A DNA stretch of 64,000 bases from assembly GCF_005869845.1 (NCBI RefSeq), contig NZ_VAWF01000002.1, positions 124,001 to 188,000 on the forward strand. Direction: 5' to 3'. Shown piece by piece: positions 6,372-64,000 of this stretch. Every line of letters begins with the position of its first letter. Position 1 is the stretch's first letter. A program made the position numbers and the translations under genes. A model generated the notes under the pieces. The model did no database searches. It was not told the origin of the DNA and saw only the letters and a list, made by a program, of their open reading frames with translations. The stretch is from Fodinibius saliphilus (GTDB lineage Bacteria; Bacteroidota; Rhodothermia; Balneolales; Balneolaceae).

Positions 6372-8273
6372 ATGAAGTTTAAAACTATTAGTCTTTGTAC
6401 GCTTTTCATGCTGCTTTCTTTGGCTGGACTTAGCCAGGATAACTATTACTGGCAGCAAGAAGCAGAGTACAAAATGGAGATCAATATAGATGCCGAAAAC
6501 CATCATTTTACAGGTGTCCAGGAGTTGACCTACCACAATAACTCACCCGATACGCTCCATCGTGCATTCTACCACCTATACTTTAATGCTTTCCAACCGA
6601 ACAGCATGATGGATGTACGTTCGCGTACCATTGCTGATCCCGACGGACGGGTTCGTGACCGCATCCAAAAATTACCAGAGGATGAGATCGGATATCACCA
6701 TATCAACAGCCTTAAACAAGATGGCAAAAAGGTTGATTATACCGTAGACGGTACTATTCTAGAGGTCACTCTTGACGAACCGATACTTCCGGGTGAATCA
6801 ACTGTATTCAATATGGAATTTGAAAGCCAAGTGCCACGACAGATTCGCCGATCCGGTTGGATGAACAAGGAAGGTGTTGAGTTTTCTATGAGTCAATGGT
6901 ACCCTAAGCTTTCTGAATATGATGAGGATGGATGGCATCCCAATCCCTATATTGGCCGGGAATTTCATGGTGTTTGGGGGAGCTTCGACGTTAAAATCAC
7001 TATTGACAGCTCCTATGTTATGGGTGCTACAGGACACCTTCAAAATGCGGATGAAATCGGCCACGGCTATGCGGATAATTACAATCGCCCTAATTCTGAA
7101 AAACTGACTTGGCATTGGAAAGCTGATAACGTGCACGACTTTATGTGGGGTGCCGATCCGGACTTTACCCATACTACAGCACAAGTACCTAACGGCCCCA
7201 AACTGCATTTTCTCTACCAAGCAGATACTGTTGCCGTTAATGCAAAGCAATACTCCCAAGAACAGCTTCGCCAAAGCTGGGAAAGACTACCCCAAGCTAC
7301 TGTTACAGCATTCCAGTTTATGAGCAAACATTTTGGTAAATATCCTTATGACAAATTTACCGTTATCCAGGGAGGGGACGGGGGCATGGAGTATCCGATG
7401 GCTACTTTGATCACCGGAAACCGTTCTTTTGGAAGCTTGGTAGGCGTTACGGTACATGAGCTTGTTCATAGTTGGTATTATGGCGTTTTAGCGACAAATG
7501 AAAGTCGATATCCCTGGATGGATGAAGGGTTTACGACCTACTCCTCGGCACTTGTCATGGATCACCTTTTTAAGAATGGAAATGAAGAACGCCCTCATAA
7601 ACGGTCGTACCAATCGTACTTTAGTATTGCTGAGGATGGGCAACAAGAAGCACTCGACACCCATGCCGACCACTTCCATACCAATAGAGCTTATGGCGCT
7701 GCATCATACTCCACAGGCGCCGTATTTCTGAATCAATTGCGTTATATCGTTGGCGGTGAACACTTTGACCGCGGCATGAAGCGTTATTTTGAAGAATGGA
7801 AGTTCAAGCATCCCGACGGACGTGATTTTCTACGAGTTATGGAACAAGAATCAAACATGGTGCTGGATTGGTATTACCAATATTTCATAGAGTCTACTAA
7901 ACATATAGATTACGGTATCACTTCTGTGCTGGAAGATAACGGATCTACTTATGTAACGCTCGAACGTCATGATCTGATGCCGATGCCTATAGACTTAGTA
8001 GTTTCCTACAAGGATGGCAGCCAGGAACTATATTATATGCCTCTGCGCATTATGCGCAATACCAAGCCGCATAGCAGCTCAGATATGCAACGCATTGTTA
8101 AACCTGACTGGCCATGGGTAAATCCAACATATACCCTCGAAATTGATGCTCCATCTTCAGAAATAAAACGTATTGAAATTGATCCCTCAATGCGGATGGC
8201 AGATGTCAATCGTGAAAACAATGTGATTGATATGAGTGAGTATCTGAAACAGTTTGAACCTGCTACTAAATAA
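6372..8273 (+). CDS. Secreted M1 family metallopeptidase (aminopeptidase-like)
   Basis: A signal peptide (MKFKTISLCTLFMLLSLAGLS) precedes a 633-residue M1 peptidase. The zinc site is HELVH (first His at residue 362) followed by 18 residues and Glu in WMDEGF, the HEXXH-x18-E gluzincin pattern. The exopeptidase motif appears as GGMEYP upstream. The N-terminal beta-sandwich contains the ENHHFTGVQELTYHNNSPDTL stretch typical of FCB M1 enzymes. It probably trims peptides in the periplasm or outside the cell, complementing the S9 peptidase 5 kb upstream. A strong hairpin terminator follows the stop codon. Confidence 0.93.
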   Translation: MKFKTISLCTLFMLLSLAGLSQDNYYWQQEAEYKMEINIDAENHHFTGVQELTYHNNSPDTLHRAFYHLYFNAFQPNSMMDVRSRTIADPDGRVRDRIQKLPEDEIGYHHINSLKQDGKKVDYTVDGTILEVTLDEPILPGESTVFNMEFESQVPRQIRRSGWMNKEGVEFSMSQWYPKLSEYDEDGWHPNPYIGREFHGVWGSFDVKITIDSSYVMGATGHLQNADEIGHGYADNYNRPNSEKLTWHWKADNVHDFMWGADPDFTHTTAQVPNGPKLHFLYQADTVAVNAKQYSQEQLRQSWERLPQATVTAFQFMSKHFGKYPYDKFTVIQGGDGGMEYPMATLITGNRSFGSLVGVTVHELVHSWYYGVLATNESRYPWMDEGFTTYSSALVMDHLFKNGNEERPHKRSYQSYFSIAEDGQQEALDTHADHFHTNRAYGAASYSTGAVFLNQLRYIVGGEHFDRGMKRYFEEWKFKHPDGRDFLRVMEQESNMVLDWYYQYFIESTKHIDYGITSVLEDNGSTYVTLERHDLMPMPIDLVVSYKDGSQELYYMPLRIMRNTKPHSSSDMQRIVKPDWPWVNPTYTLEIDAPSSEIKRIEIDPSMRMADVNRENNVIDMSEYLKQFEPATK

Positions 8274-8311
8274 TCACGACAAGGAAAAGCTTACTCACTA
8301 AATATATTCAA

Positions 8312-8348
8312 AAATGGCACAGGCGTGATGCTTGTGCCATTTTTTATT
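8312..8348 (+). terminator. Rho-independent terminator after the M1 peptidase
   Basis: Stem aaatggcaca / tgtgccattt (8312-8321 with 8333-8343) with an 11-nt loop and a T-rich tail. It ends the rightward transcript that carries the M1 peptidase. Confidence 0.85.
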
Positions 8349-8678
8349 TTTGGGGATTTGTTAGCCTACCTCCAGTTAAATCCCTGTTTTATAAGATTTT
8401 GTGCTACACAGATCTCTCGCTTCGTTCGAAATAACTCGTTGTTTGTTTATTGTGGCAAGCTACCTCATCCCTACTTCCTAAAATCACAGCGAGAGGTCTT
8501 TGTTTTGATGGATAACTAAAAATGGGGCAGTAAGCACATTTAGATTTGCCTTTGCTGTGGCCGAACGATAACCCCAGTCACCCGACTAAGGTCGTTGATA
8601 TTACTTCCAACAATTACACCCGTGATCGCAATCTGTCAGCTGCCGGCAGTAGTGGTTGATGGTTAGTTACAGATAAAA
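8349..8678. other. Gene-free stretch with a spaced inverted repeat
   Basis: There is no convincing gene here; a 64-codon open frame across it overlaps the terminator and has no family resemblance. It holds an inverted repeat, agatctctcgct at 8410-8421 against agcgagaggtct at 8488-8499 (one mismatch), which could fold into a long hairpin or mark a dispersed intergenic element. The last ~150 bp before the convergent gene show nothing I can name. Confidence 0.4.
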
Positions 8679-9248
8679 CTAAAAAAGATTGGCCTGTTCG
8701 CTATCCTCTTTGGGTGCCCGCTCCATCTGGGGATTGGCAACCTTACCTTGATTGACGCGCAGCATATCCGGTTTAAACTTCTTACCATAAATCTGCTTGG
8801 CAACGCCCTGCAATGCCTTTTCTCCGCGAGGGGTTATTAGCAATCGGTCTTGGTCATCTATAGAAAGGAAGCCAAACTCTTTCAGGTCATTCACAATCAT
8901 ATAAGCCAGCTTATTGATCGCTCCTGAATTCTGCTCAACATAATCACGACTAGGTGCCTCATCGGCAGCAGAGTAAACAAGACCCAAAATGTTTAATTCT
9001 ACTTCGGTAAGGGGATATCCTTCGCAACCGGCCGTCAGGGTTTCGTCCCACGCTTGTTGACTAAAGTAAGCTCCAAACCACCACTTGCCTTCTTTGATAA
9101 GTTTATCCGTTACTTTACAAGCAAAATATTCACCGGGCTTCGCTTTTTTAGGGATACCCCGGTCTCGGTACATTGATACCAATGTTGCTAAATCCAACTC
9201 ATGAAGGTTGGGAGGGTAACTAAAGAATGTATTTGATGACTTTTCCAT
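8679..9248 (-). CDS. Conserved unknown protein with a C-terminal clamp-binding-like motif
   Basis: A 189-residue protein that I cannot assign to a named family. The middle looks like a winged helix: PLTEVELNILGLVYSAADEA, then AYMIVNDLKEFGFLSID, then LLITPRGEKALQG. The chain ends exactly in SEQANLF, a QxxLF pattern at the very C-terminus, which is how many repair and replication proteins dock on the beta sliding clamp. The gene is convergent with the M1 peptidase and lies 159 bp downstream of topA on the same strand, so a role in DNA transactions is a reasonable inference. The motif is short and could be coincidence. Confidence 0.7.
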   Translation of the reverse strand: MEKSSNTFFSYPPNLHELDLATLVSMYRDRGIPKKAKPGEYFACKVTDKLIKEGKWWFGAYFSQQAWDETLTAGCEGYPLTEVELNILGLVYSAADEAPSRDYVEQNSGAINKLAYMIVNDLKEFGFLSIDDQDRLLITPRGEKALQGVAKQIYGKKFKPDMLRVNQGKVANPQMERAPKEDSEQANLF

Positions 9249-9407
9249 GACGCTCCAAATTAGAAAACTGGAACCTTATTGTCATGTTAAAATTGCAAGA
9301 ATTTTTAACGATGTATGTCCCGACTATTAGACCGGGCACTTACACACATTATTCCTCAAACCGGATCACTATCCTATTGAAAAAATAAAGCTTAATTCCC
9401 GGTTACG

Positions 9408-11951
9408 CTATCCCTTTTCGGTAATAAGTTGTACCGCAATATCCATATCTACATCTTCAGGATCAAAATCATCTGGTAAGCTTATATTATTTTTACCATG
9501 CTTAATATATGGACCATATCGACCAGTCATCACCCGTACTTTTTTTCCATCTTCGGGATGTTCACCAAGGTCATGAATGACATTGCTTTTCCGCGACTTC
9601 TTATTCTTCTTCTGCTCAAGCAGTTCCAAAGCCCGTTCCAGTGTAATATCTAACACATAATCTTTCTTTCGCAGTGAGGCAAAAGTACCGTCGTGTACAA
9701 CAAAGGGTCCATAGCGGCCTACACCCGCTCTTATAATTTTTCCAGTATCAGGATGATCTCCCAAAGGACGAGGCAGCTCCAACAATCGAAGGGCCAAATT
9801 AACATCCACATCTTCGGGCTTCATATCCTTAAGCAAAGAAGCACGCTCAGGTTTTTTATTATCATCAGTCACTTCACCAACCTGCACATACGGACCGTAC
9901 CTTCCGTTAAGTACAAAGATGGGCTCTCCGGTATCAGGATGGTTACCAATAGATTTCGGACCTTCCTCTTCCGCTTTTATCAACTCTTCAAGCTTTTCAA
10001 CCGTAATATCACTGGGCTTCCAGCTTTCCGGTATAGAAGTCGTTAATTCTTCCCCATCCTGCTCTTTTTTAATATACGGACCGTACCGCCCTACAAACAC
10101 TTGTATCCCGTTAAGACCGGGCAGGGGAAGTTCCAAGTGGCGAGCATCCTGTGGATCAATTTGATCTTCCTGTTCTTCTACTTTTGCTTTCAACCCGTCA
10201 TCTCCTTTGTAATACTCGCGGAGATACTGTTTAGTATCCAGTTCACCTTGGGCAATTTCATCCAACTTGGCTTCCATTCCCGAGGTAAAGTCGCTGTCTA
10301 CTACATCATGAAGATTCTTCTCGAGCAGTTCGGTAACCGCAAAAGCGGTGAAAGTAGGGACCAGCGTTTTACCGTCCGCTTCAACATAACCTCGATTTTG
10401 CACCGTACTGATAATAGATGCATAGGTACTGGGTCGACCAACTCCTCGTTTTTCAAGCTCTTTAACAAGGGTCGCCTCAGTATAACGCGCCGGGGGTTTG
10501 GTCTCGTGCGAAATAGGCTCAATGCCATCCTCTTCAACCGTTTCTCCTTCTTCTAGCTTAGGCAAGAACTTTTCCTGGTTTTCCAGGGCCGCATCGGGAT
10601 CATCACTCCCTTCTACATAAGCTCGGAAAAAGCCGGGGAATATAATCTTCTTGCCACTCGTCTTAAATTCAGCAACTTTATTATTGGCTTTAGCCTCGAT
10701 AGTAACATTGGTAAACTCAAGCTCAGCCCGTGCCATTTGGGTAGCTATGGTACGCTTCCATATCAAATCATAGAGCTTAAACTGATCGCCACTAAGACCT
10801 GCCTCTTCCGGTTTTCTGAAATAACTACCTGCCGGACGAATTGCTTCGTGAGCCTCTTGAGAGCCGGAACCACCAGAATAATTTCTGACTTTTTTATAAA
10901 GGTAGTCTTCACCATACTCATCCTTAACGGCATTACGCGCCGCCCCAATGGCCTGACTCGACAACCGAGCTGAATCAGTACGCATGTAGGTAATGTATCC
11001 ATTTTCGTACAACTTTTGAGCCACACCCATTGTCCGCTTAGCCGAAAAGTTCAATTTCCGGTTCGCTTCCTGCTGCAAAGTAGATGTTATGAAGGCCGGG
11101 GAGGGATTTCGCTTCTTACGATTCTTTTTAACTTCCGAGACCTCCCAATCGGCAGACTCAAGATCATCACGCAGTTCACCAGCGGTTTTATCATCAAGCA
11201 AGACAACCTTTTCAGGCTTCTTCAGCTTGCCCGTATGTTCATCAAAATCTTTACCGGAAGCTAATCGTTTACCATCCAGATGAGTAAGATCAGCTTCAAA
11301 AGTATTGCCGGCATCCTGCTTACGCAGTTGAGCTTTCAAATCCCAGTAACGAGCAGAGCGAAATTTCATGCGTTCTCGTTCCCGTTCAACCATAAACCGA
11401 ACAGCAACCGATTGTACACGTCCTGCCGAAAGACCCGGCGCAATTTTTTTCCAAAGAAGAGGAGAAATTGTATAACCGGCCAACCGATCAATAATACGGC
11501 GGGCTTCCTGGGCATTTACCAAATTCATGTCGATATCACGAAAATGGTTAAGCGCTTCTTTAATAGCTTCTTCGGTGATTTCTCTAAAAACCATGCGCTT
11601 CACCGGAATATCGGGCTTTAAAATCTCGGTCAAGTGCCACGAAATTGCTTCTCCTTCCCGGTCTTCATCTGTAGCAAGAATAAGCTCATCAGAATCCTTA
11701 AGCTCTTTCTTAAGTCGTTTAACAACCTTCTTTTTACTAGAAGGTATTACATAAAGAGGATCAAAGTCGTCATCTGTATTGACACCTAAATTTGCCCACT
11801 CCTCTCCCTTAAACTTTTTAGGCACCTCTTTGGCATTGGCAGGGAGATCCCGAATATGCCCCATCGACGAATCGATCACATACTCTTCGGGCAGGTACTT
11901 CTTAAGCGTTTTAATTTTTGTGGGTGACTCTACAATTACAAGCGACTTCAT
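9408..11951 (-). CDS. topA: DNA topoisomerase I
   Basis: A type IA topoisomerase of 847 residues that relaxes negative supercoils. The Toprim domain begins at residue 1 (SLVIVESPTKIKTLKKYL) and carries the acidic DEDREGEAISWH motif. The catalytic tyrosine is Tyr322 in TYMRTDS. The C-terminal third has no cysteine zinc ribbons; instead it has repeated GRYGPYI/GRYGPYV/GRYGPFV modules (about five), the topoisomerase C-terminal repeat found outside the gammaproteobacteria. The start is the ATG before KSLVIVESPT. The peroxiredoxin gene is 12 bp upstream on the same strand, suggesting co-transcription. Confidence 0.97.
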   Translation of the reverse strand: MKSLVIVESPTKIKTLKKYLPEEYVIDSSMGHIRDLPANAKEVPKKFKGEEWANLGVNTDDDFDPLYVIPSSKKKVVKRLKKELKDSDELILATDEDREGEAISWHLTEILKPDIPVKRMVFREITEEAIKEALNHFRDIDMNLVNAQEARRIIDRLAGYTISPLLWKKIAPGLSAGRVQSVAVRFMVERERERMKFRSARYWDLKAQLRKQDAGNTFEADLTHLDGKRLASGKDFDEHTGKLKKPEKVVLLDDKTAGELRDDLESADWEVSEVKKNRKKRNPSPAFITSTLQQEANRKLNFSAKRTMGVAQKLYENGYITYMRTDSARLSSQAIGAARNAVKDEYGEDYLYKKVRNYSGGSGSQEAHEAIRPAGSYFRKPEEAGLSGDQFKLYDLIWKRTIATQMARAELEFTNVTIEAKANNKVAEFKTSGKKIIFPGFFRAYVEGSDDPDAALENQEKFLPKLEEGETVEEDGIEPISHETKPPARYTEATLVKELEKRGVGRPSTYASIISTVQNRGYVEADGKTLVPTFTAFAVTELLEKNLHDVVDSDFTSGMEAKLDEIAQGELDTKQYLREYYKGDDGLKAKVEEQEDQIDPQDARHLELPLPGLNGIQVFVGRYGPYIKKEQDGEELTTSIPESWKPSDITVEKLEELIKAEEEGPKSIGNHPDTGEPIFVLNGRYGPYVQVGEVTDDNKKPERASLLKDMKPEDVDVNLALRLLELPRPLGDHPDTGKIIRAGVGRYGPFVVHDGTFASLRKKDYVLDITLERALELLEQKKNKKSRKSNVIHDLGEHPEDGKKVRVMTGRYGPYIKHGKNNISLPDDFDPEDVDMDIAVQLITEKG

Positions 11952-57909: not shown

Positions 57910-57983
57910 GCGCCCGTAGCTCAACTGGATAGAGCGTCTGACTTCGGATCAGAAGGTTAGGAGTTCGAATCTTCTCGGGCGTA
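57910..57983 (+). tRNA. tRNA-Arg, anticodon TCG
   Basis: A 74-nt cloverleaf: acceptor GCGCCCG with CGGGCGT (first pair G-T), D stem GCTC/GAGC, anticodon stem TCTGA/TCAGA with loop CTTCGGA, T stem AGGAG/CTTCT with loop TTCGAAT, discriminator A; CCA is not encoded. Anticodon TCG reads CGA-type Arg codons. Its 3' half borders the integrative element and is the likely attachment site. Confidence 0.95.
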
Positions 57984-57992
57984 CTGCTTCAT

Positions 57993-58196: not shown

Positions 58197-58373
58197 ATGA
58201 GTCGAGAAGAGCACCCCATGAATGGCAGTAACCAGGAGACCGCAACCTTTGACCGATCACGTGCACTACTGGATGCAGCAAATAGCATCAGAAAGGACTT
58301 ACCACCTGAGAAGAAGAAAGACCTCGATCTGCTGATTCGGAATTATGGTTCCGGATTATCCGATACAGATTAA
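58197..58373 (+). CDS. Small unknown protein (58 aa), first gene of the element
   Basis: An ATG preceded by caaggaga (about 10 bp) opens 58 codons: MSREEHPMNGSNQETATFDR, then helix-prone ALLDAANSIRKDLPPEKKKD and LDLLIRNYGSGLSDTD. The strong ribosome-binding site supports a real gene. No family is recognised. Confidence 0.6.
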   Translation: MSREEHPMNGSNQETATFDRSRALLDAANSIRKDLPPEKKKDLDLLIRNYGSGLSDTD

Positions 58374-59693: not shown

Positions 59694-60566
59694 TTAGTTC
59701 TTGAATCCTTCCAGATCATCGGCTTGATCCCTTCCTGAAAGACCATCCTCTCCTGAGCCTTCTTGATTTCGCTGATCTATTTTGGATTCTTCATCCTGAA
59801 GTTTAGGTTCGTCGATCAGGTTCCTGGCATTGGCGCTGATGCTTTGTTTTAGAAGTTCAAGGACATAGGTTAGGGTACGTTTCTTTGCAAATCGTCTCAG
59901 CTCCATACGCTGCATTTCTTCTGCTGATACCGTTAGACGCTTATCAATTTCCCAAAGATGTGTTTTCCACTTTTGATACCATGCTTCGAGAATGAGATTA
60001 TCGAAAGGTTGCTGATCATTCTGTGCAGCCAATCCGAAAATTTCTTCGTCTGATAAGTCCTTAAAGTTCGAAGGAAAATCTTCGCGCGTATATTTCTCTC
60101 TCTCGTTACTTCTATGATTCTCTTCTTTATGATTCTCTTTATAAGGAACGGAACTATTGTTCCGGTCGGTGGTGGAACTATAGTCCTGTGTGGGTGGAAC
60201 CTTAGTTCCGGGGTGTGTGGAACTATTATTCCGGACACTTTGAGCATATTTATCATCTTGATCCATCCAACTATGCCGTAAGAACCTGTAGCTGTTTGGC
60301 CGCCTCTTACCTTTCTGCTGAACCTCAATCAGGTTAGCATCTATTAGCTCATTGAGATATTTTCGAATCATTCGGCTCGAGACTCCTAATTCTTTAGAAA
60401 GTGTCTCCTGCTTAGGAAATGCCTTTCCATTCTCCCCAGCATATTGAGATAACCTTCCATAACAAAGTTTAGCACCTTGGGAAATCTCCCTTCTTCTCAT
60501 CAAAAAATTAGGTACTACACAGCCATTAAACTGCCTATAAGGTATTATGTATTTCGTGCTGCTCAT
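59694..60566 (-). CDS. Phage-type replication initiator (lambda O-like layout)
   Basis: 290 residues. The N-terminal ~105 residues are a winged-helix DNA-binding domain (RREISQGAKLCYGRLSQYAG, AFPKQETLSKELGVSSRMIR, then KYLNELIDANLIEVQQKGKR), as in HTH_36-type and lambda O-type initiators. Residues 112-157 are a low-complexity Asn/Ser/Thr/Pro then Glu/Lys/His linker, encoded by the iteron-like repeats and the purine tract. The C-terminal part (EIFGLAAQNDQQPFDNLILE, RFAKKRTLTYVLELLKQSIS) is helical with an acidic tail. Length and order match lambda O, which binds an origin inside its own gene. Confidence 0.75.
   Translation of the reverse strand: MSSTKYIIPYRQFNGCVVPNFLMRRREISQGAKLCYGRLSQYAGENGKAFPKQETLSKELGVSSRMIRKYLNELIDANLIEVQQKGKRRPNSYRFLRHSWMDQDDKYAQSVRNNSSTHPGTKVPPTQDYSSTTDRNNSSVPYKENHKEENHRSNEREKYTREDFPSNFKDLSDEEIFGLAAQNDQQPFDNLILEAWYQKWKTHLWEIDKRLTVSAEEMQRMELRRFAKKRTLTYVLELLKQSISANARNLIDEPKLQDEESKIDQRNQEGSGEDGLSGRDQADDLEGFKN
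60095..60235. other. Candidate replication origin inside the initiator gene
   Basis: Four repeats with GGAAC-N4-GTTCC symmetry: 60150-60163 (perfect arms), 60174-60186 (one base short), 60196-60209 (perfect arms), 60219-60232 (one mismatch). Their starts are 24, 22 and 23 bp apart, about two helical turns, separated by G/T-rich spacers. Downstream on the coding strand lies a purine-rich, AT-rich tract of about 50 nt holding aagagaatcata twice (60128-60139 and 60113-60124). Iterons plus an asymmetric AT-rich unwinding tract inside the initiator gene is the lambda ori layout. Confidence 0.7.
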
Positions 60567-60726: not shown

Positions 60727-61017
60727 TCATTGATCGTAAACTTTGCTTTGGGATTCCCCTGGAAATAACTCGCTTTGCTTTTCTGGTGGAAATAATTCCG
60801 GATCAGTGGAATAGTATTTCGCCACATAGCCTGTTATCTGGCAAGGTCTCCGATCAACCGTTACAACCTGATTCCTTTTCTCAAGCTTAGCGATATGCCT
60901 GGTAATGTTTTCTCTGGGAATCCCCGTTGCTTTCTGAATCATTTTGGTTGTTCGGGGTCTCACTTCTAAAACCCTTTTTATCTTCTCGATCTGTGATTCT
61001 TTTTTCTCTTTGTCCAT
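60727..61017 (-). CDS. Winged-helix DNA-binding protein (96 aa)
   Basis: The helix-turn-helix is clear: SQIEKIKRVLEVRPRTTKMI, then QKATGIPRENITRHIAKLEK, then a wing RNQVVTVDRRPCQITGYVAK. The tail has EKQSELFPGES, a QxxLF string like a clamp-binding motif. Its start overlaps the end of the upstream small gene by 40 bp. It probably regulates or assists replication in the element. Confidence 0.7.
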   Translation of the reverse strand: MDKEKKESQIEKIKRVLEVRPRTTKMIQKATGIPRENITRHIAKLEKRNQVVTVDRRPCQITGYVAKYYSTDPELFPPEKQSELFPGESQSKVYDQ

Positions 61018-61277
61018 AGAATATCCTCCTTAATTTGTTTATAGATCTGCTGTTGTTCTGACCTTTCATATTTGGCCAATACGGATTCGAGAACGATTCG
61101 AAAGGTCGGAAGGCCGTACTCTGTAGATTGATAAAGTACAGCTAACCGGCGCGCCGTATCAGCTAATGAATTGCCTTTGTAGGAGGGGTTGGATATCTTG
61201 GTAGTAGCTGTTTCATCCTTTCCCGGGATACTGAGCTTTTCCGATTCGACCAACCCTCCAACGGTTGGTCGTTTCAT
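60978..61277 (-). CDS. Small unknown protein (99 aa) of the element
   Basis: N-terminal disordered part (VGGLVESEKLSIPGKDETAT) and a helical C-terminal part (SLADTARRLAVLYQSTEYGL, RIVLESVLAKYERSEQQQIY) ending in a basic WTKRKKNHRSRR. Its ATG overlaps the AlpA-type gene's stop (ATGA), so it is translationally coupled to it. The family is not recognised. Confidence 0.6.
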   Translation of the reverse strand: MKRPTVGGLVESEKLSIPGKDETATTKISNPSYKGNSLADTARRLAVLYQSTEYGLPTFRIVLESVLAKYERSEQQQIYKQIKEDILWTKRKKNHRSRR

Positions 61278-61480
61278 TTTAGAGCTGTCTTAGAACGAGT
61301 AATATCAGCATCTGGCCGGTTCGCGATCCACTCTTCAATGTCAGACTTTCGCCAACCGACGGCGCGTTCTGATATCTTAATTCGTGCTGGTAAGCGTCCC
61401 TCTTTCTCCATTCTCCAAAGGGTGGAACTGGTAACGCCTAAAATGTCCTGTAATTCGGAAGGTCTTATTATTCGGTCCAT
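61274..61480 (-). CDS. AlpA-family regulator / excisionase-like protein
   Basis: 68 residues: IIRPSELQDILGVTSSTLWR, then MEKEGRLPARIKISERAVGW, then RKSDIEEWIANRP. This is the MerR-like helix-turn-helix of AlpA and Xis-type proteins, which control integrase expression or excision. A perfect palindrome and a promoter-like sequence lie upstream. It heads the leftward set toward the initiator. Confidence 0.85.
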   Translation of the reverse strand: MDRIIRPSELQDILGVTSSTLWRMEKEGRLPARIKISERAVGWRKSDIEEWIANRPDADITRSKTALK

Positions 61481-61589: not shown

Positions 61590-62585
61590 TCAATTCTGAA
61601 TCTCTGGTATTACTTCCTTAATTCTCCTCTTGATAGTTCTAAGACTGGCGATCTCTTCCAGATTCGTTACCTCTGCTATGTGGAGCGCAATTTGTCTTAC
61701 CGAAGGGGTTCCATCTGATTTATAAAACTTCTTATTGGATGGATCCTTTAAAGATTCTACTACGTAAGGTCTCACATCATTTTTTGTGATTTTTCTTCGA
61801 GCTCCTGGTCTCTTTTCTTGCTTCTCTTCCAAGACCCGAAGGAATCCATTATAGGATACCTCTTGATTATACCTCTTAACTTCTAAGAGATATGACACCA
61901 TAGAGATATACTGATAAGTTTCTGCGGCCTCAGCTCTTAGATTATTCAGCTCTCTAATATCCTCTTGATGAAAAGAATCATCTGAATACTTGGGAAGGAT
62001 ATCAGTAGAAAGCTTATACATTCCTTTCTGAAACAGCCCCCCGAATGATCCTGATATCCATTCTAAAAGCTTAAGCGCAACCTTTCGGACATCAGCGGCT
62101 GAGCTTTGTTCTGAGATTTGCCAAATAATCAGATCCAGTTTATGATAAATTGAATCTTTCGTTTCGGTAAGATCGGACTTAAGATCTTTCTCAATCTCCT
62201 TTAAATCTGAATAATTCTTTTTACCAAAATAGGTAAGCATATCTTTTAACCTTTCCTCTTCCAAAATACGTTCAGAAGGGTTTACGAGAGTTTCTAAACT
62301 ATAAGAAGTTGAATAACCCTCCCAGTGTTCTTGTAGATAGATCGGATAGTATGGCTCCCAGAGAACAACCTGTTTATCATTAAGACTATGAAGGCTTGAG
62401 AGAATGGAAATAAGAAGCGATTCAGATACTATATCACGGCTAGTATCATCAGAAAAAACAGGAGGAGTATTTAAATAATCACTAATCGCCTTATGCTCAT
62501 TATTTGCTTGGCTATTCCTAAAACCTTTATCAATCAGCTTATCCAATTCTGATTCAAGTTCAGGAGAAAGATCAGATAGATTCAT
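61590..62585 (-). CDS. Unknown protein with a C-terminal HTH-like region (331 aa)
   Basis: No family is recognised. The N-terminal half is acidic and helical (LESELDKLIDKGFRNSQANN, LLISILSSLHSLNDKQVVLW). The middle has AADVRKVALKLLEWISGSFG. The end reads GTPSVRQIALHIAEVTNLEE and SLRTIKRRIKEVIPEIQN, which looks like a helix-turn-helix of the kind seen on mobile-element proteins. It begins one base after the stop of the 86-aa gene, so both are expressed together. Confidence 0.65.
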   Translation of the reverse strand: MNLSDLSPELESELDKLIDKGFRNSQANNEHKAISDYLNTPPVFSDDTSRDIVSESLLISILSSLHSLNDKQVVLWEPYYPIYLQEHWEGYSTSYSLETLVNPSERILEEERLKDMLTYFGKKNYSDLKEIEKDLKSDLTETKDSIYHKLDLIIWQISEQSSAADVRKVALKLLEWISGSFGGLFQKGMYKLSTDILPKYSDDSFHQEDIRELNNLRAEAAETYQYISMVSYLLEVKRYNQEVSYNGFLRVLEEKQEKRPGARRKITKNDVRPYVVESLKDPSNKKFYKSDGTPSVRQIALHIAEVTNLEEIASLRTIKRRIKEVIPEIQN

Positions 62586-62862: not shown

Positions 62863-64000
62863 TTAGTTTTTCGCTGATCCTATTTGTGTAATCTTTGCCC
62901 CTTGATCTTCTTCCTCAGATAATATCTTCTGTAAATGCCTTGCCCATCGATTAAGAGCCTGCCGCTTTTCGTCCATGTAATTATGCCGGTCGTAAATTGC
63001 TGTTACCTGATCGTCTCCGGCTAACCCTTTATGATTCAACACCTTTCCTAATACCGTCCGATCTACTCCGAGTTTAGCCATGTAACTGGCTGCTGTCCGT
63101 CTCAGATCGTGAACCCGAAAGTCTTTAACCTTTGATGCGTTCTGGATTCTTTTAACCGCTTTCTGCAACCATTTAACTGGCTGATTCTCTACGCGATTAG
63201 ATTGTGATGCAAAGACATAATCCGTCGTGCCAGTCAGTATTTTCAGATTCTCGATAAGCTTTACAGCCGAATCTGATAAGGGAACATGATGCGTTCGCTT
63301 TGCTTTTGTTTCACTGGCCGGAATCACCCAGACATTATCATTATCCAAATGCTCCCACCTCATACGGCGCGTCTCTCCGGACCGCTGGCCACAAAGCAAC
63401 AGCATCTTGAAAATACTCTGTACCGGCTCTGCCTGCTGCTCAAATGCTTTCCATAGCGCGCGAATTTCATCTTTGCTATAAACGCGCTCCCTTTTATTCT
63501 CTGATTTCTTCCGTTTGGGTACGGCTAATACCGGATTGGCTTCAACGATAGCCCGATCCACTCCATAGGAGTACATGCTTGACAGTACAGCTCTTACCCT
63601 ATTAGAGAGCACTCCCTTTCCCCTTTCAACTGCTATTTTATCTAACAGCTTAATGATATGCCGGCGCGAAAGCTTATCAACTGGAATATCCCCAAGGACC
63701 GGCAAGATCTCCTTTTTTAACAATCTCCTATACTCATCACTTGTACTTTCCCTAAGTGATGGCAGATGCCTTTCCTTATATTCGTCGGCTAAATCGGAAA
63801 CAGTTTCATGGTCCGTCTCATACTTTTTAGCCTTCCTCTCCTCGATTGGATCGATACCGTCCTTAATCTTCCGATGTAGTTCTCGGGCTTTATCTCTGGC
63901 CGCAGCTAAGCTAAACTCGGGAAATGAACCGATGGTATAACGCCTGACCTTATCACCAAAGCGATATCGATACACAAAGGATTTATGACCGGTAGGCGTA
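62863..64000 (-). CDS. Tyrosine-type site-specific integrase, 5' partial
   Basis: The frame is open to the right edge (TPTGHKSFV before the GTG at 63975), so the true start lies outside. It has the DUF4102-like arm-binding start (RYRFGDKVRRYTIGSFPEFS, LAAARDKARELHRKIKDGID, PIEERKAKK), then the core-binding domain and the catalytic set: Arg in LCGQRSGETRRMRW, HxxR in RVHDLRRTAASYMAKLGVD, His in KVLNHKG and Tyr in AIYDRHNY. This P4/tRNA-targeting branch fits the tRNA-Arg at the other side. It leads the leftward block. Confidence 0.93.
   Translation of the reverse strand, partial: TPTGHKSFVYRYRFGDKVRRYTIGSFPEFSLAAARDKARELHRKIKDGIDPIEERKAKKYETDHETVSDLADEYKERHLPSLRESTSDEYRRLLKKEILPVLGDIPVDKLSRRHIIKLLDKIAVERGKGVLSNRVRAVLSSMYSYGVDRAIVEANPVLAVPKRKKSENKRERVYSKDEIRALWKAFEQQAEPVQSIFKMLLLCGQRSGETRRMRWEHLDNDNVWVIPASETKAKRTHHVPLSDSAVKLIENLKILTGTTDYVFASQSNRVENQPVKWLQKAVKRIQNASKVKDFRVHDLRRTAASYMAKLGVDRTVLGKVLNHKGLAGDDQVTAIYDRHNYMDEKRQALNRWARHLQKILSEEEDQGAKITQIGSAKN

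Follow-up and report, generated by a model that had tools for sequence, protein, structure and literature searches.

The locus considered here raises the question of whether a replication initiator gene can carry, within its own reading frame, the DNA from which replication of its element starts. In-gene origins are known from few models. In the window, by which we mean the whole analysed stretch of 64,000 nucleotides of Fodinibius saliphilus DNA, a first-pass annotation made from the letters alone had placed an origin of the phage lambda type inside the initiator gene of a satellite. Our sequence analysis indicates that the HTH_36 replication initiator gene at 59694-60566 (minus strand, 290 aa) very probably belongs to a small integrated element and that its linker-encoding part doubles as the putative replication origin of this element. 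We infer origin activity, and we read the origin as one that works like that of lambda but is carried by an HTH_36 initiator outside the lambda-O family.

The assignment of the gene is based on its open reading frame, on a match to PF13730 (HTH_36; E 2e-11, 43.9 bits against a curated cut-off of 25) and on a match to PHROG_270, 'replication initiation protein' (E 1.9e-15). The N-terminal winged-helix domain, predicted by AlphaFold2 and a fold search, is encoded by codons 27-97 (60276-60488, minus strand) and includes the recognition helix region VSSRMIRKYLNELI in codons 62-75 (60342-60383, minus strand), whereas the C-terminal domain gave no family match in the Pfam profile search. Block means of the AlphaFold2 pLDDT were 91-98 over residues 21-100 and fell below 50 in linker residues 127-165, as expected for a disordered stretch. 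The solved folds closest to the N-terminal domain are those of RepA_N initiators, which were the best match by both aligners (4pql: Z 10.4, 3.0 A over 104 residues, 15% identity), and the next unrelated fold followed at Z 8.8; with a margin of about 1.6 Z over unrelated winged helices, the modelled likeness to RepA_N is one of shared fold only. PF06970 (RepA_N) was not among the Pfam matches of the protein up to E 1, and the winged-helix centromere binders AspA, TubR and pNOB8 protein stood lower in the fold list.

The element that carries the gene lies between tRNA-Arg(tcg) and a second att copy and measures 6853 bp. Its attL corresponds to the 3' part of tRNA-Arg(tcg) (57938-57985, plus strand), and the second copy (L002 8790-8837), about 0.8 kb beyond the window end, agrees with it at 46 of 48 positions, counted by eye. 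Upstream of the initiator gene, all on the minus strand, lie genes for a 96-aa protein with winged-helix-like matches below the cut-off (60727-61017), an AlpA-type regulator or excisionase (61274-61480; PF05930, E 1.3e-13) and a tyrosine integrase (PF00589), which occupies 62863-64000, continues beyond the window end and has 427 aa in L002. Between the latter two, a 331-aa protein encoded at 61590-62585 had no family above the cut-off. Integrase, AlpA, initiator and att sites, the hallmarks of satellites and of PICI-type elements, are thus all present; packaging or helper-interference genes were not recognised among the element proteins scanned, and the label 'satellite' is plausible. Neither the list of open reading frames nor Pfam revealed a recognised helicase gene adjoining the initiator gene. 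The 13 Por_Secre_tail domains encoded by the host genome agree with a place in the FCB group. A congener (G009) carries a related element at a different tRNA-Arg, with identities of 43% for the integrase, 51% for AlpA, 62% for the 96-aa protein and 78% for the N-terminal part of the initiator; at the end of this element a second, different integrase-like gene adjoins the tRNA-Arg copy (L098 12984-14273). An element of another congener genome (L100, G011:C15:120000-138000) combines integrase, AlpA-like gene, HTH_36 initiator, major capsid protein (PF05065) and large terminase (PF04466) in about 7 kb and may be either a prophage or a capsid-forming satellite.

The linker-encoding part of the gene contains four 14-bp dyads of the GGAAC-N4-GTTCC type, and the positions, spacing and codons (112-139) for which they had been proposed are confirmed. 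In gene direction, iteron 1 (60219-60232) deviates from GGAACNNNNGTTCC at one position, iteron 2 (60196-60209) is a perfect 5-N4-5 dyad, iteron 3 (60174-60187) has two mismatches and occurs in the identical imperfect form in a relative (L005), and iteron 4 (60150-60163) is again perfect; the dyads as such are unstranded. Their starts on the plus strand, 60150, 60174, 60196 and 60219, are spaced by 24, 22 and 23 bp, so that the copies do not all lie in one reading frame. The A+T content of the iteron block is 48%, compared with 59% for the element. Over the whole window the GGAACNNNNGTTCC pattern with up to two mismatches shows no enrichment, with 23 occurrences against an expectation of 19.45, and what is unusual at this level is the occurrence of four copies, two of them exact, within 83 bp. 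For this reason homologues rather than window statistics were used as evidence against a chance cluster of dyads, an explanation that was rejected. A lone iteron-like site with one mismatch, GGAATTATGGTTCC, is located in an intergenic region near the tRNA end of the element (58339-58352) and may be due to chance.

The array is followed on the coding strand by an A+T-rich, purine-rich tract of 59 nt (60089-60147, minus strand), the putative unwinding region, which bears out the earlier description with 71% A+T, 73% purine and a doubled 12-mer at 60113-60124 and 60128-60139. Within the 12-mers, a 10-mer, AAGAGAATCA, occurs twice on the minus strand, first at 60130-60139, 10 bp beyond iteron 4, and again at 60115-60124, 15 bp from the first copy. 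The tract contains the 173rd least stable of the 6808 45-mers of the element; it is easy to melt, yet other DNA of the element is less stable. The 10-mer may resemble a 13-mer of E. coli oriC, a likeness on which no claim is based.

Homologues were collected by a protein-alignment scan, which gave 18 viral loci, from 128 genomes of the order, which gave four relatives, and by a scan for the 10-mer, from which 18 of the 37 genes finally compared were derived. After removal of 11 near-duplicates, 49 non-redundant genes were available, and the set of 37 was obtained from these by leaving out L021, which is truncated, and the 11 named distant records. In nine genes the linker offset was chosen manually; L150 and L024 denote one contig. 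The named relatives that tblastn brought up were distant and few in number (with the window protein, four phage and two plasmid records; with relatives, 16, 56 and 2 records; with a staphylococcal phage relative, 26 plasmids); nine named distant records and lambda were inspected by eye and stand outside all counts.

Homologues with linkers devoid of repeats had been named beforehand as the observation that would speak against an embedded origin. At least two linker repeat copies are present in 36 of the 37 homologues, compared with means of 7.1 after shuffling of the codon order and 22.7 after synonymous shuffling (40 shuffles each), and L008 is the sole gene in which the repeat test found none. 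For at least three copies the corresponding numbers are 29 of 37, 0.2 and 8.7. Of the 37 genes, 18 have copies spread over two or more frames and 19 show no frame change. Perfect 5-N4-5 dyads number 65, as against 15.0 +/- 3.7 with a maximum of 28 in 200 synonymous shuffles; other even dyad gaps are also raised and odd gaps mostly not, gap 9 being raised, and in L010, L065, L068 and others the arrays are not clean 5-N4-5 dyads. Eight genes, among them L008, L010, L015, L026, L037, L062 and L063, gave p>=0.1 against synonymous shuffles (L037 against either null), and in these the protein sequence alone could give the repeats.

The 10-mer is likewise shared. The 19 protein-selected genes hold 18 exact copies of AAGAGAATCA, compared with 2.0 after synonymous shuffling (maximum 6, 100 shuffles), and none on the opposite strand; the motif or a form with one mismatch is found in 12 of these genes and is missing from seven. 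Among the 30 genes that carry the motif, 29 have two or more copies, and in 24 of these 29 the copies differ in reading frame; the distance between neighbours is 13-17 bp. In 16 genes with both features that were measured, the first copy begins between 1 and 69 bp past the last dyad, in 11 of them at 8-13 bp. A scan of viral contigs for the doubled 10-mer alone returned 41 stretches, of which 26, assigned by eye and with near-copies included, lie inside this HTH_36 gene family; five of the 26 were contigs already known from the protein search, the 26 gave 18 new non-redundant genes, and four of the 15 other stretches are copies of one sequence. The control scan of the viral contigs with the reversed 10-mer gave 13 stretches, none of them in the family, and a scan for a pair of AAGAGAGTCA gave seven, of which six belong to the family and one was already known. 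Among 395 genomes of the phylum the 10-mer pair had five matches in four genomes: three fall in the initiator genes of G000 and G009, two genes in all, and two in unrelated genes (L101, L102); matches to the reversed motif were absent among those listed for the same genomes. Literature matched by the 10-mer string was unrelated by title among the matches listed, and a query joining it with phage, origin and replication returned no such replication origin, as judged from titles and the beginnings of abstracts.

A comparison of the window gene with two relatives suggests what the conserved unit is. In the alignment with L005, identical residues share the codon as well at 32 of 37 positions of the linker and at 31 of 82 within the HTH domain (Fisher p=5e-7), and third-position identity is 0.88 in the iterons and 0.82 in the 10-mer tract, compared with 0.44. 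Similarity falls just past the 10-mers, and in the C-terminal halves the alignment identity is only 25%. The repeats of L005 are spaced by 23, 22 and 24 bp with the arms kept. In L006, from a congener, GGAAC iterons are spaced by 23, 23 and 23 bp, the first copy being degenerate and the units falling in three reading frames; here the codon comparison does not reach significance (p=0.44), and the C-terminus shows only 20% alignment identity to that of the window gene. Retention of arms and spacing as DNA, which had been proposed as a check, was thus observed in both relatives, and the codon usage in L005 and the three frames in L006 agree with the earlier view that the linker is shaped by DNA rather than protein needs. 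Because the linker is conserved as DNA, similarity breaks off after the 10-mers and the C-termini of L005 and L006 have diverged, the HTH domain, the iterons and the tract appear to form a single cassette.

The arms of the iterons differ among homologues, and their similarity tracks that of the recognition helix (25 genes, arms assigned by eye from the DNA; r=0.40, 0 of 2000 Mantel permutations), also when close relatives are left out (r=0.35, p=0.0005). Five other segments of the domain gave no significant correlation with the arms in the 25 genes; in a subset of 17 genes, segment 33-46 also tracked them (p=0.015). This correspondence was then used in the reverse direction, by scanning for pairs of arms only, which gave 42 stretches for GGAAC, at least 120 for GGACA and 21 for TGAAG. 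HTH domains were searched with an HMM built from the family and rebuilt from its own first matches (77, then 88 sequences), which replaced helix assignments made partly by eye. An HTH domain was encoded upstream in the same open frame at 23 of 31 GGAAC loci with a suitable frame, at 65 of 76 GGACA loci (from the first 80 of at least 120) and at 16 of 19 TGAAG loci with a frame; the family-only HMM found 18, 59 and 15, and random places sampled alike gave 0 of 42, 0 of 76 and 0 of 21, respectively. An earlier, differently sampled control had found an HTH in 11 of 2023 other ORFs.

Arginine at helix position 8 separates two of the arm types, being present in 0 of 15 GGAAC and 36 of 38 GGACA clusters among the matches listed (p=2e-11; clusters defined by identities under 50%). 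This rule was formed on the GGAAC set together with a small number of family genes and written down before the GGACA scan. Counted by locus, GGACA helices have Arg at 8 in 63 of 65 cases in the first 80 of at least 120 loci and in 28 of 28 in the last 40 examined, where an HTH was found at 28 of 37 loci and 15 helices were new. The forecast of Arg at position 4 for GGACA applied strictly in 41 of 65 and 22 of 28 helices of these two portions of the at least 120 loci, with Lys in 23 and 6, and thus held loosely, as Arg or Lys. For TGAAG, the forecast written beforehand (R4, Q5, C6, S7, no R7) held in part: Arg or Lys is absent from position 7 in 10 of 10 distinct helices and Arg stands at 4 in nine of 10 distinct helices and nine of 16 loci, but the QCS part did not generalise. 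Two GGAAC loci, L140 and L147, encode lambda-O-type proteins (fragments matching PF04492 with E 5e-25 and 8e-23), so that the helix-arm correspondence crosses family borders.

The genes downstream of the initiator were scanned in 22 of the 27 loci listed for this purpose, usually one or two genes each. A helicase, primase-helicase or loader gene starting within 2.5 kb was found at eight of the 22 viral loci, with one more below the cut-off; the other 14, this one included, had no helicase or loader match. At L099 (G018:C6:74500-93500, 7549-10310) a DnaB helicase gene overlaps the end of the initiator gene and is followed by a DUF2280 gene (PF10045), and an integrase and an AlpA gene adjoin.

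The lambda origin lies inside gene O and is described as consisting of four dyad iterons and an AT-rich tract (PMC6022878). The window gene shares with gene O the four mid-gene dyads, spaced by 20-24 bp in lambda (annotated iterons: 20, 24, 23), the one-sided AT-rich tract beyond them, the length of the product (300 codons with stop in lambda O, 290 aa here) and the layout of an N-terminal binder and a C-terminal partner domain. It differs in that the lambda dyads, read by eye, are 5-N5-5 instead of 5-N4-5, that AAGAGAATCA was not seen in the lambda stretch inspected and that a lambda P-type gene was not recognised beside the window initiator. Membership in the lambda O family is rejected, PF04492 not being among the matches up to E 1, with L140 and L147 as positive control. 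Of the lambda-type origin proposed earlier, the in-gene anatomy (dyads, one-sided AT tract and lengths) is therefore upheld and the kinship with lambda O is not, HTH_36 and PHROG_270 being the best matches.

Further parallels are found among plasmids. Rep of pSK41 is described as binding four Rep boxes central in its own rep gene, with a linker encoded by origin DNA, and in the staphylococcal plasmid pPR9 a pfam13730 N-domain together with the origin region, about 500 bp, has been swapped in as a block in front of a C-domain of the pSK41 type, giving a mini-replicon that replicates (PMC5703833). The RepA_N initiators of pSK41 and pTZ6162 thus resemble the window protein in the nearest solved fold and the central in-gene boxes but differ from it by PF06970, which the window protein does not match. 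The exchanged block of pPR9 resembles the HTH_36 domain with putative origin that the window gene and L005 share up to the breakpoint after the 10-mers; pPR9, likened here from its published description, is a Firmicute plasmid with a pSK41 C-domain. Satellite systems are alike in other features. RepA of the PLE satellite of Vibrio cholerae, a RepA_N fold (4ro3, with a middling Z of 7.7), acts together with semi-palindromic iterons, but a noncoding region is described as needed for its origin (PMC7145576), unlike the in-gene array of the window. Gram-negative PICIs share integrase, AlpA, initiator and compact size with the window element; in the published account they have a pri-rep gene and an origin 3' of rep, with two iteron sets flanking an AT-rich region, hence outside the initiator frame (PMC6092414). 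The statement that such an origin would be new in the FCB group can be kept in a narrower form: the host is consistent with this group and no in-gene origin of an FCB element was found in the open-licence literature searched, but the HTH_36 layout is already described for pPR9 (PMC5703833). The kind of origin is thus known, and what we did not meet in that literature is a host of FCB type, a tandem 10-mer that stays fixed and a correspondence between helix and arms, the helix code not itself having been a query.

The following mechanism is proposed for the in-gene origin. The N-terminal winged helix would bind each 14-bp 5-N4-5 dyad, probably as a dimer with one recognition helix per half-site, and the four sites, 22-24 bp or about two helical turns apart, would assemble a nucleoprotein core similar to the lambda O-some. 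The adjoining tract with its tandem AAGAGAATCA would open on one side only, and the 10-mer would give the direction, as a signal for unwinding or in single-stranded form; of all the steps, this function of the 10-mer is the least secure. The C-terminal domain, exchangeable between elements, would recruit the replicative helicase. Since site and binder share one reading frame, they would stay linked on cassette exchange.

Among the other explanations, one assumes that the iterons are a cluster of binding sites for the HTH protein that serves control (autoregulation, copy control or incompatibility), with the true origin elsewhere in the element. Replicon iterons are described as serving control too, as in R6K handcuffing (PMC7433901), and the origin is located 3' of rep in Gram-negative PICIs (PMC6092414) and requires a noncoding region in PLE (PMC7145576). 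We nevertheless consider a purely regulatory array unlikely, because a tract with the tandem 10-mer adjoins it on one side, 8-13 bp away in 11 of 16 genes, because array and HTH domain are shared across C-terminal exchange like the working block described for pPR9 (PMC5703833), and because some relatives have helicase neighbours. The same array might be a partition (centromere-like) site of the HTH protein, an idea to which AspA, TubR and pNOB8 protein in the fold list and a ParB_N gene near L067 lend some weight; it is very unlikely in view of the family names, which denote replication initiation, of the best fold, that of a replication initiator, and of the matched neighbours, which are more often helicases or loaders.

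Another view holds that the repeats belong to the protein, as a low-complexity peptide repeat with DNA similarity as a by-product. The peptide RNNSS does occur twice, 19 of the 37 homologues lack a frame change, and synonymous shuffles keep at least two copies in 22.7 of 37 genes. The DNA unit, however, is not confined to one frame in 18 of 37 genes, nor is the 10-mer in 24 of 29, frame changes for which this explanation was rejected, and the codon conservation relative to L005 and the arm-specific helix residues likewise make it extremely improbable. That the element is decaying and that its former origin no longer works in this copy is unlikely as well: two of the four dyads are imperfect and no packaging genes were recognised among the element proteins scanned, but the imperfect iteron 3 is identical in L005, the integrase and AlpA frames are open, and the att copies are 46/48 alike. 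The reading that we prefer is an initiator gene with the element's putative origin in its linker.

A broader proposal, which we hold to be slightly more likely than not, is that many phages and satellites share one modular class of self-embedded origins, made up of HTH_36 and some lambda-O-type initiators, in which a few helix residues (Arg 8 for GGACA; basic residues at 4 and 7 without Arg 8 for GGAAC) let origin and protein predict each other, and that in one clade a common signal for unwinding or helicase loading, the conserved one-sided tandem 10-mer AAGAGARTCA, stayed fixed while the iterons changed. Since the layout is present in 36 of 37 homologues and is retrieved by DNA pattern alone, sequence could serve to locate the origins of uncultured phages and satellites. 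Through the correspondence of helix and arms, initiator-origin specificity, incompatibility and cassette exchange become open to experiment, and the question of how such initiators open DNA gains a defined target in the conserved tandem 10-mer. Two loci met during the 10-mer scans are of separate interest. At L040 8194, a doubled 10-mer and iteron-like repeats lie outside long open frames, possibly a non-embedded origin, and the reversed-motif match at L076 4030 falls in another kind of phage initiator-like gene, which has tandem repeats of its own together with a doubled ACTAAGAGAA and may represent a further type of in-gene origin.
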